A stretch of DNA of 64,000 nucleotides from Haliclystus octoradiatus (taxonomy: Eukaryota; Cnidaria; Staurozoa; Stauromedusae; Haliclystidae), in contig OU744449.1 in NCBI GenBank assembly GCA_916610825.1, positions 17,391,344 through 17,455,343 of the forward strand, in the 5' to 3' direction. The position numbers were made by a program, and so were the translations under genes. How positions within the stretch are numbered: the first letter of the stretch is position 1; each line of letters begins with the position of its first letter. Shown here piece by piece: positions 48,601 through 51,600 of this stretch. A model generated the notes under the pieces. The model was not told where the DNA came from. It made no database searches and saw only the letters and a program-made list of their open reading frames with translations.

Positions 48601-51600
48601 GTTAGAGCAAATTCGGAAAGAAATTGATATTTTTATGATTTATTGGTCAATATTCAACAAAAATATCAGAAGAAAATGTTGAGATGCCTCTAGGATTCCA
48701 GAAGGTTGAACTTCTTGTTGGATGAGTAGCACACGATACATCGTTTTAACTTAATTTAGATCTTTGATTTAGCTACATTGAAAAAGTCTAGGGTGTTCTT
48801 CAATTCCAGAGGGATAAACCTTTTGTCAGGTGCCGGAAACCTGGGAAAATTCAGATTAAAGAGGCAAAATGTTGGATTTAAATCAAAAATCATTAAAAAA
48901 TATATGAAAAATTAATGTCATTACAATTACTCATCCATTGATCTAAAATATTGAGGTTTGCGGAAGTTAAAACATTTTGTCGGATCATTGTCATAGTTAT
49001 TATTATTATTATTATTATTATTATTATTATTTTTATTATTATTATTATTATTATTATTATTATTATTATTATTATTATTATTATTATTATTATTATTATT
49101 ATTATTATTATTATTATTATTATTATTATTATTATTATTATTATTATTATTATTATTATTATTATTATTATTATTATTATTATTATTATTATTATTATTA
49201 TTATTATTATTATTATTATTATTATTATTATTATTATTATTATTATTATTATTATTATTATTATTATTATTATTATTATTATTATTATTATTATTATTAT
49301 TATTATTATTATTATTATTATTATTATTATTATTATTATTATTATTATTATTATTATTATTATTATTATTATTATTATTATTATTATTATTATTATTATT
49401 ATTATTGTTATTGTTATTGTTATTATTATTATTATTATTATTATTATTATTATTATTATTATTATTATTTTTATTATTATTATTATTATTATTATTATTA
49501 TTATTATTATTATTATTATTATTATTATTATTATTATTATTATTATTATTATTATTATTATTATTATTATTATCATTATCATTATTATTATTATTATTAT
49601 TATTATTATTATTATTATTATTATTATTATTATTATTATTATTATTATTATTATTATTATTATTATTATTATTATTATTATTATTATTATTATTATTATT
49701 ATTATTATTATTATTATTATTATTATTATCATTATTGTTATTATTATTATTATTATTATTATTATTATTATTATTATTATTATTATTATTATTATTATTA
49801 TTATTATTATTATTATTATTATTATTATTATTATTATTATTATTATTATTATTATTATACTTACTTAGTTACTTCATAGAATAAAAAACTGTCTGATGAT
49901 CGCAGTAGCGTGAAACTTGGAGTTACTTCATAGAATAAAAAACTGTCTGATGATCGCAGTAGCGTGAAACTTGGAGTTACAGTAAAGAATGTGTTTTCTT
50001 TGATCTATCACCATTATTATTATTATTATTATTTACCGCTCTGCCAAATGTTGACATTGAGCACTATTTTGTCTGCTATTAGATAAACCTATACTTATTA
50101 TATTATTATTATTATTATTATTATTATTATTATTATTATTATTATTATTATTATTATTATTATTATTATTATTATTATTATTATTATTATTATTATTATT
50201 ATTATTATTATTATTATTATTATTATTATTATTATTATTATTATTATTATTATTATTATTATTATTATTATTATTATTATTATTATTGCGGATAATTTAT
50301 CTTCATATGTTTAATTACTAGGAGTCTCATCAGAAAGAAATGGAAGAAACAATCCGTGATATGCTATTGATAAAGAATTCTCTTGATAGTAGCTGCCTTG
50401 GTATTCCTGATGTAAGTCAGTACAATGATACAGTCAGCCATTGCAGTGCATTTGATGGAAAATAAACCTTGCTGAATTGCCCTTCAATAAGGTGTCCCAT
50501 CTCTATTTCCCTGTTGAGTAGAAATGCCTTTCACTCGTCAGTGATCTCAGGTTTGTCTCTGCAGGGTCATGGTTACCTGCTGGTAATGTGCATTACAAAG
50601 TTAAAGTTTAAGTATTTCCTTTGGGCCATTCCATCCTCCATATCAAATATGATTTGCTTTGAGCATCATAATGCTATCCAAGCTTATCCTACCTTGATGA
50701 TTTAGTTAGGCAATAAAAAGTTAGTTAATTACTATTCAATTTCCAATCAAACTGTTGTGATATGCACACCTATGGTATAATCATAGACTTATTAGAACAT
50801 CTAGACGGCTAATTTCTGACGTCATCCATTAAGAAGCACTAAAATCGAATGTCCACCAAAGTTTCTCGAAATTTCGAAAAACGCAAAGAATATCCGTCAT
50901 GTTGGCCTCACCAGGATTTCAAAAGTCCATTTAAAATATTAGAAAACAAGCAAATGGAGTGAAGGAAGTAAGGTATTGTGAGCACATTGGAAGACTGATC
51001 GTCGTCAAATCCCAATCATTTGAAAATCATAGATTTGTCTAGACAATGGACGTGTTCAATCCAATTGGTGACATGATTAGCAGCTACATAAATGAATTAA
51101 CGGGTATTTTTGAGCTGCATACACAATTTTTGTAACATTTAAATAGATTAATACACTTTAAATTGTATGAATAATCATGCTATCATGATTATCTATTGAT
51201 TTAGATGCTTTGAATTATGTTGACATCATTAATAGAATTTTAAATATATTTACAACAATATCTCAGAAAGTAGTTTATGCTCCGTTTTCGCTGATCACTC
51301 GATTACCAATCGGATTAAACACGTCCATTGTCTAGCAAAATCTATGATCTTCGAATTACTGAAATTTGATGACGATCGGTGTTCAATTGCGCTCACAATA
51401 GCTTATTACCCTCACTCCATTTGTTAGTTTCCTAATAAATGACGTTTTGAAAATGTGGTGAGGCCAGCATGGCGGATTTTGTTTATTCAATGGTTTTCGA
51501 GCGGACACTGTGACGTCAGAAGTTAGCGGTCTAGATGTTCTAATAAGTCTATGGGTATAATAGATATATTAGTTCAATCTGTAGACAATGGACATTTTTT

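Follow-up and report, generated by a model that had tools for sequence, protein, structure and literature searches.

The paired hammerhead sequences near 49.9 kb in the window (the whole 64,000-nucleotide stretch of Haliclystus octoradiatus DNA that was analysed), here called locus A, very probably represent a 5'-end insertion, or solo pLTR, of an abundant Penelope-like element (PLE) with intact ORFs, which would have been inserted by the two-strand scheme set out below and altered afterwards by a DNA duplication. The element is ordinary in kind, a PLE pLTR with a minimal hammerhead. This one genome supplies about two thousand core copies; natural copies give clear evidence on the use that the element makes of its ribozyme. 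The ends sampled suggest that the inserted RNA is uncleaved, that the ribozyme lies at the 5' end of the transcript and that two internal start sites are used per insertion.

Locus A sits between two long plus-strand ORFs. Positions 49867-49926 and 49921-49980 are identical by sequence comparison and form a direct repeat with a period of 54 bp, which Tandem Repeats Finder (TRF) buries inside an ATT array call. Each copy contains the core CTGATGA TCGC AGTA GCGT GAAAC (49893-49916 and 49947-49970), so that the two 54-bp repeats with minimal type I cores reported in the first-pass annotation are directly seen in the sequence. The full 5-bp stem I (ACTGT/ACAGT) that it assigned to the second copy is likewise present, at 49942-49946 and 49979-49983, with cleavage predicted after T49978. 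Stem III of this copy is AC/GT, or 3 bp if a U-A pair is counted, with the loop UGG. Copy 2 possesses every helix, and stem I of copy 1 is reduced to 2 bp. The first stem II pair (10.1-11.1), unmentioned in the annotation, is U-U in both hammerheads. The CUGANGA...GAAA core, three helices and H17 site of a type I hammerhead were recognised both by a descriptor and by a family covariance model (R1). The features of locus A are as follows.

49867..49926, plus strand: direct repeat copy 1, with a 6-bp overlap (AGTTAC) with copy 2
49921..49980, plus strand: direct repeat copy 2 (sequence identity)
49887..49930, plus strand: hammerhead copy 1, stem I broken (R1, E 1.7e-10)
49941..49984, plus strand: hammerhead copy 2, complete, predicted cleavage after T49978 (R1, E 1.7e-15; descriptor)
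49979..50012, plus strand: pLTR arm 3' of the cleavage site (ACAGTAAAGAATGTGTTTTCTTTGATC...), identical in PLE locus L127
50013..50033, plus strand: ATT block 1, between arm and hairpin, the putative first priming site
50030..50096, plus strand: pLTR hairpin module (GCTCTG...TTGAGCAC), by nhmmer and fold, also in PLE loci L124-L127
50102..50287, plus strand: ATT block 2, or 3' ATT array (nhmmer)
48997..49858, no strand assigned: upstream ATT array, target or older element (TRF, nhmmer)

The reading of these sequences as minimal type I hammerheads with a tiny stem III, PLE-like affinity, a retroelement origin and ATT surroundings is supported. Embedding in an ATT microsatellite, which had been taken as a defining trait, is not general: only 9 of 30 consecutive hammerhead matches lie near an ATT/AAT array with at least 5 units.

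Other members of the family are distributed across the window.

19381..19554, no strand assigned: copy B, a perfect head-to-head palindrome of two 87-bp pLTR arms, 99% identical to the pLTR of PLE L125
19422..19466, minus strand: copy B hammerhead (R1, E 1.3e-16)
19469..19513, plus strand: copy B hammerhead (R1, E 1.3e-16)
19326..19384, minus strand: copy B hairpin module, on one arm only (nhmmer)
45269..45338, no strand assigned: copy C, a head-to-head palindrome with 35-bp arms (94%), without hammerhead core
45219..45264, minus strand: copy C hairpin module (nhmmer, E 1.2e-4)
58582..58766, minus strand: copy D, a head-to-head palindrome plus hairpin module, with a 15-bp direct repeat at its borders
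58567..58581 (left) and 58767-58781 (right), no strand assigned: copy D target-site duplication (TSD), CAATACAGTATATAT
58715..58763, plus strand: copy D hammerhead, C3 mutated to U (R1, E 7e-11)
11249..11294, minus strand: copy E hammerhead, stem I CTCGC/GCGAG, C3 mutated to A (R1, E 4.4e-12)
14349..14386, plus strand: fragment F, matching the end of the hairpin module (blastn, E 1.6e-7; nhmmer, E 0.035)

The hairpin GCTCTG...(G)AGC is thus a second module common to copies A, B, C and D, and copy E is a hammerhead in decay whose stem I differs. The palindromes of copies C and D are shorter than that of copy B. The palindrome and hairpin module of copy D were probably inserted as one unit, since the 15-bp direct repeat bounds the whole. 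The 174-bp perfect palindrome of copy B gives sub-cut-off scores against many Rfam microRNA models; the 76 microRNA and other Rfam matches listed on it, none at its cut-off, are ascribed to the perfect hairpin. If transcribed, this palindrome would form long dsRNA, a possible source of small RNAs against the element. At 25270-25390, within a plus-strand ORF, the hammerhead/arm profile gives weak nhmmer matches (E 0.02-0.05), perhaps an old copy.

The source of these sequences was sought in the genome from which the window comes (262 Mb, 33 contigs), where the core pattern has 1986 matches against 0 for the reversed pattern, and the arm pattern 1982 against 3 for its control. Regular spacing of 2525 bp among the core matches pointed to a larger unit. 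Locus L124 contains three stop-free ORFs of 711 amino acids, two in tandem and one inverted, in units 2525 bp apart; L125 contains one of 714 amino acids, and further tandem ORFs occur at about 2.5 kb. The element unit, about 2.5 kb and often tandem, runs from ORF stop through hammerhead, arm, ATT block, hairpin, ATT-rich sequence and leader to the next ORF start, and the ATT block between arm and hairpin is missing from some subtypes. Copy A is 94-100% identical to the pLTR of L127, and copy B 99% to that of L125. A protein search, in which 63 of 3559 candidates were scored, found the stop-free span 1-711 in 41 of the 63 places, with 66-100% identity. The element is abundant in the genome and apparently still intact. 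The idea that the sequence constitutes a non-autonomous family of its own is not supported, as the sequence belongs to the pLTR of an element whose ORFs are intact in this genome.

The ORF of 711 amino acids contains what we take, by eye, to be a reverse transcriptase (RT) motif (DIxNFYPxI...YRDDG) and what is presumably a GIY-YIG motif (GIIY...YIGLTE..FKARYTQH). No meaningful profile match to it was found in Pfam, NCBIfam or PDB, the two Pfam matches (E 0.078 and 0.16) being unrelated and far below cut-off; the protein has no relative in the viral contigs searched, and the element sequences matched no described family. Tandem copies with pLTRs around the ORF (L124, L125), a hammerhead in the pLTR and inverted pLTRs with an optional tail were all found. 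The source family would thus be a PLE, a label founded on these motifs and on architecture. Two further arrangements were encountered among its loci. Downstream of position 1525 in L105, an arm palindrome of another subtype (AGAATGTGTATTCTTTGA) lies in an AAT array behind a hammerhead copy, which indicates that the elements nest in each other's ATT arrays. On the minus strand of L125, at about 1000-1010, ORF sequence is joined to the hammerhead's GAAACTTT at a match of AGAAACTTT, a joint that template jumping or deletion would give.

The inserts are mainly head-to-head pairs. Among neighbouring arms less than 5 kb apart, 60 of 66 are head-to-head (A-type, 33/35 among the first 100 of 203 arms; B-type, 27/31 among all 87), counts in which the A and B subtypes were kept separate and mixed neighbours, such as the tail-to-tail C5:166040+ / C5:166219-, do not figure. 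Among the first 100 of the 1986 core matches, all 16 neighbours less than 200 bp apart are head-to-head, and both cores belong to one subtype in all 16 (15 identical, one differing by 2 nt). Head-to-head pairs of less than 300 bp number 41 among the 187 arms counted. An inverted partner accompanies 19 of 30 consecutive core matches on contig C1, and the hairpin is present on exactly one arm in 17 of these 19 (11 separate loci), on both in none, and on neither in two, which are one loose pair, L097/L098. Window copies B, C and D also carry the hairpin on one arm only. The two arms of a pair stop at different places, as a rule one per ATT-rich block, since the hairpin occurs on one arm and never on both. 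Direct repeats of 14-16 bp were found at the element borders at only 4 of 13 loci; in 11 of 156 comparisons between unrelated flanks, 14 or more were shared as well.

A scheme consistent with these forms is one in which the element's own enzyme would cut AT-rich DNA on both strands, reverse transcription would start internally at two ATT blocks, one per strand, each cDNA would run to the 5' end of the RNA, and the two cDNAs would be joined head-to-head. One step of this scheme, not the whole, has a serious competitor, namely that the pairs come from self-priming (snap-back) of one PLE template or cDNA instead of two-strand priming. Snap-back has been proposed for rotifer Penelope elements (PMC3846280, in the part of that paper used here), and it accounts for same-subtype arms, seen in all 16 of the closest pairs and in the 87-bp identity of the arms of copy B, at least as well as two templates do. 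Against it, 17 of the 19 partnered matches have one arm ending before the hairpin and the other beyond it, with never both beyond, and the protein of PAc, a Poseidon PLE of Anolis carolinensis, extends both target strands from two start sites (PMC11167929). Snap-back is a real possibility, towards which we lean less than towards priming on two strands.

The 5' ends of the inserts were compared with their sources in 44 copies, typed by arm and including both arms of some pairs. Among the 35 B-type copies, homology to L125 stops 0-18 nt upstream of the core in 25 and extends for at least 71 nt in 10, with no copy in between. A sister subtype has a shorter leader, and its 9 copies were compared with L097; the homology stops 0-15 nt upstream in 7 of them and extends for at least 180 nt in 2. 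Thirty loci were chosen by similarity to a query starting 13 nt upstream of the core, so that very short leaders are under-represented. Homology borders fall between TTTTTC and ATTAATAGTATATTCTGT and between TTTTTC and ATTAATAGTATCTGT, and these two borders at TTTTTC indicate that the limit moves with the leader. The TTTTTC box is located at -14 to -19 from the core in 10 of 65 distinct contexts, representing six core subtypes, and an exact copy of the box is absent from the remaining 55. Inserts L086 (A-type) and L096 (L124-type) start exactly at the matching A and L087 (A-type) 1 nt inside, and window copy A starts at that A or 3 nt before it (homology past the putative start, TTC). Within 60 pairs, the gap between cleavage sites is 0-10 in none, 11-70 in 4, 71-160 in 35 and more in 21.

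Judged from the insert ends, the transcript would start at the A of an initiator-like TTTTTC/A, which would place the ribozyme right at the 5' end of the mRNA. The inserted template RNA looks uncleaved, because the ends stop at or inside TTTTTC/A and none of the 60 pairs ends at the cleavage site.

The pairing of the ribozyme was examined in counts that are not independent events, as the subfamilies share descent: in ten subfamily members, 109 of 109 cells are paired and 12 have double changes, neither value being reached in 500 shuffles, and in window hammerheads A1, A2, B, D and E five pairs are changed on both sides (0/500 shuffles) and 86.2% of cells are paired (9/500). In the same ten members neither the count of doubly changed pairs (3; 255/500) nor that of further pair types (5; 496/500) exceeds shuffles, and the same holds for the number of pair types in the five window hammerheads (282/500). 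A GUH site is present in 32 of the 34 distinct sequences obtained from the window and from the loci retrieved, and stem I has at least 4 pairs in 22 of 32, against a mean of 12.9 and a maximum of 21 in 1000 re-pairings. Of 32 sequences, 18 have U-U and 14 have U-A as the first stem II pair. In these sequences the stem III loop is nearly always self-complementary, and its fourth (inner) pair is standard in 29 of 31 (UA 20, AU 5, UG 2, CG 2). A monomer hairpin could not form this inner pair, as only 0-1 nt would remain for the loop. Compensatory changes are seen both in stem I and in the inner part of stem III.

It is unlikely that the ribozyme is a relic with no present function, hitch-hiking in the pLTR. 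The normal insertion in vitro of PLE hammerhead mutants (PMC11167929) and the apparently uncleaved templates of the inserts described here favour such a relic; what speaks against it is that, from subfamily to subfamily, stem I and the dimer pair of stem III have changed in a compensatory manner, and that the ribozyme is retained next to intact ORFs.

The self-complementary stem III points to a hammerhead dimer, and the ribozyme would work, if at all, as a dimer through this stem. In predicted cofolds, the dimeric hammerhead comes out as the most stable structure for A2 (-21.0 kcal/mol, compared with 2 x -7.3 for the monomers) and for B (-15.6 kcal/mol, compared with 2 x -5.2), but not for E. 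One might go further and regard the dimeric 5'-end hammerhead as a pairing device first, in which stem III would join two template RNAs, the two cDNAs would finish adjacent and be joined head-to-head, and cleavage would be off or postponed. This is speculation to which we give little credence; nothing on it was found in the literature at the level of titles and opening lines of abstracts, and its absence from print is not claimed.

The 54-bp tandem itself is exceptional within the family. The junction between GGAGTTAC and TTCATAG, taken as a 27-nt pattern, has a single occurrence in the 262 Mb genome, and locus A is the only same-strand pair less than 100 bp apart among 100 listed of 168 exact copies of its subtype. 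The first-pass annotation had presented the tandem dimer as the element's design, which does not agree with a junction found once in 262 Mb and with no other close same-strand pair among the copies listed. The 6-bp AGTTAC occurs at both junctions, so that it precedes copy 1 as well. DNA duplication via AGTTAC is the simplest origin of the tandem, and likelier than an RNA circle because the junction is unique in the genome; a single template jump is possible. The tandem would thus be a later DNA duplication, and this explains the repeat in place of the 54-nt or other circular RNA previously envisaged. An origin by ribozyme cleavage, or by a template jump at the cleavage site, was rejected: the junction is 2 nt past that site, AGTTAC precedes copy 1, and the junction is unique. 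The tandem may cleave better than a single copy, since both dimer partners would be on one RNA, and at most the second site would be cut, since copy 1 is without stem I.

Locus A is very unlikely to be a short animal retrozyme, that is, an independent non-autonomous element producing a small circular RNA from tandem hammerheads. Animal retrozymes typically carry type I hammerheads in short repeats, in the portion of PMC7229834 considered, and locus A does have two in tandem. The tandem junction is nevertheless unique, the same sequence is held by the pLTRs of ORF-bearing elements, the hammerheads are minimal and PLE-like instead of canonical, and close pairs are mostly head-to-head, with 0 of 60 ending at the cleavage site. 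The first 100 of the 1986 core matches show no regular same-strand spacing indicative of 170-400-bp tandem monomers without ORF; among them are a +/+ pair and a -/- pair spaced by 250-370 bp, and the two members of the -/- pair differ in subtype.

Detection of these ribozymes depends on the model used. Rfam at its cut-offs has no match within the window, and its hammerhead model none at locus A up to E 10. The genome-wide search with RF00163 gave 0 matches, but also 0 in its 14 control genomes, and is uninformative. Model R1, built from ten hammerheads elsewhere in the genome without the window copies, finds six hammerheads in the window (E 1.3e-16 to 1.7e-10), the best score outside these being E 0.99. 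The covariance-model check proposed in the first-pass annotation therefore fails with Rfam, formally the outcome named as refuting, and succeeds with the family model (E 1.7e-15 for copy 2). A stem III of 2-3 bp and a U-U pair at the first position of stem II make the Rfam test weak here, and PLE-type hammerheads such as these can escape Rfam's model. A strict hammerhead descriptor gives 3 matches in the window against 1 in 400 dinucleotide shuffles, and a relaxed descriptor, drawn up when copies D and E were already known, gives 5 against 7 in 400 shuffles. A chance or convergent hammerhead-like sequence in low-complexity DNA, which the lack of an Rfam match might suggest, can be set aside in view of 1986 exact core copies against 0 in controls, the shuffles, the family model and the family-wide covariation.

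At 49.9 kb, the SECIS, scaRNA and sRNA models gave matches (E 0.38-7.6) that are far below their family cut-offs and were discarded. The core pattern was found at 22 loci in viral contigs and 41 in bacterial and archaeal genomes, and a full hammerhead by descriptor in one of these 63 loci; the hairpin pattern gave 0 matches in the viral contigs. The exception, on a contig of the viral collection (L022, 4883-4921), is a complete hammerhead with a 4-bp stem III and a U-U first stem II pair. Elsewhere in the window, 24698-25116 is a minisatellite of 10 copies of a 42-bp unit (96% alike), and 28562-30228 is a nested minisatellite with periods of 144/227/371/455 bp (about 91-93% alike), part of which has ORFs of 105-122 amino acids on both strands. 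That the window may also contain a BRAT1-like gene is a guess; one exon had no PDB match.

Among known systems, minimal hammerheads of PLEs and Terminons are said to have been described by Lunse 2017 and Cervera & de la Pena 2014, with action as dimers reportedly proposed. Their first stem II pair is usually G-C, whereas it is U-U or U-A in the hammerheads described here. The present ribozymes resemble them in being of type I with a tiny or missing stem III, as far as the excerpted text of PMC6155905 describes them. With animal (non-LTR) retrozymes, as portrayed in the corresponding part of PMC7229834, they share the type I hammerhead, short copies without ORF and low GC; unlike these, no 170-400-bp monomer array and no canonical loop-loop helices are seen, and the sequence is part of an ORF-bearing element.

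Further parallels are found in described Penelope elements. In PAc, RT starts at two internal sites, cuts fall at 5'-ATT-3', both strands are extended, the start site is no different between strands, and no RNA reads end at the cleavage site (PMC11167929). As in PAc, the hammerhead is located at the pLTR/ORF junction (PMC11167929); the PAc cleavage site is 26 bp inside the ORF, whereas here the core is about 210 bp upstream of the ATG (L124, L125) and, unlike in PAc, 14-19 nt from the putative 5' end of the RNA. Endonuclease-containing Penelope elements of the rotifer Adineta vaga have inverted pLTRs with a tail on one and TSDs of 8-10 bp (PMC3846280, the part cited above). The present family is similar to them in its tandem and inverted pLTRs, palindromic head-to-head junction, tail on one inverted pLTR, short TSDs and AT-rich targets (PMC3846280, same part). 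It differs, relative to that part of the account, in that the ribozyme is mapped here, the one-arm part holds the hairpin, 41 close pairs are counted and the border repeats seem to be longer (4 of 13 loci with 14-16 bp). The arm ends observed in the present family fit both the two start sites and two-strand extension of PAc and, within the same part of that account, the one-sided tail of rotifer Penelope.
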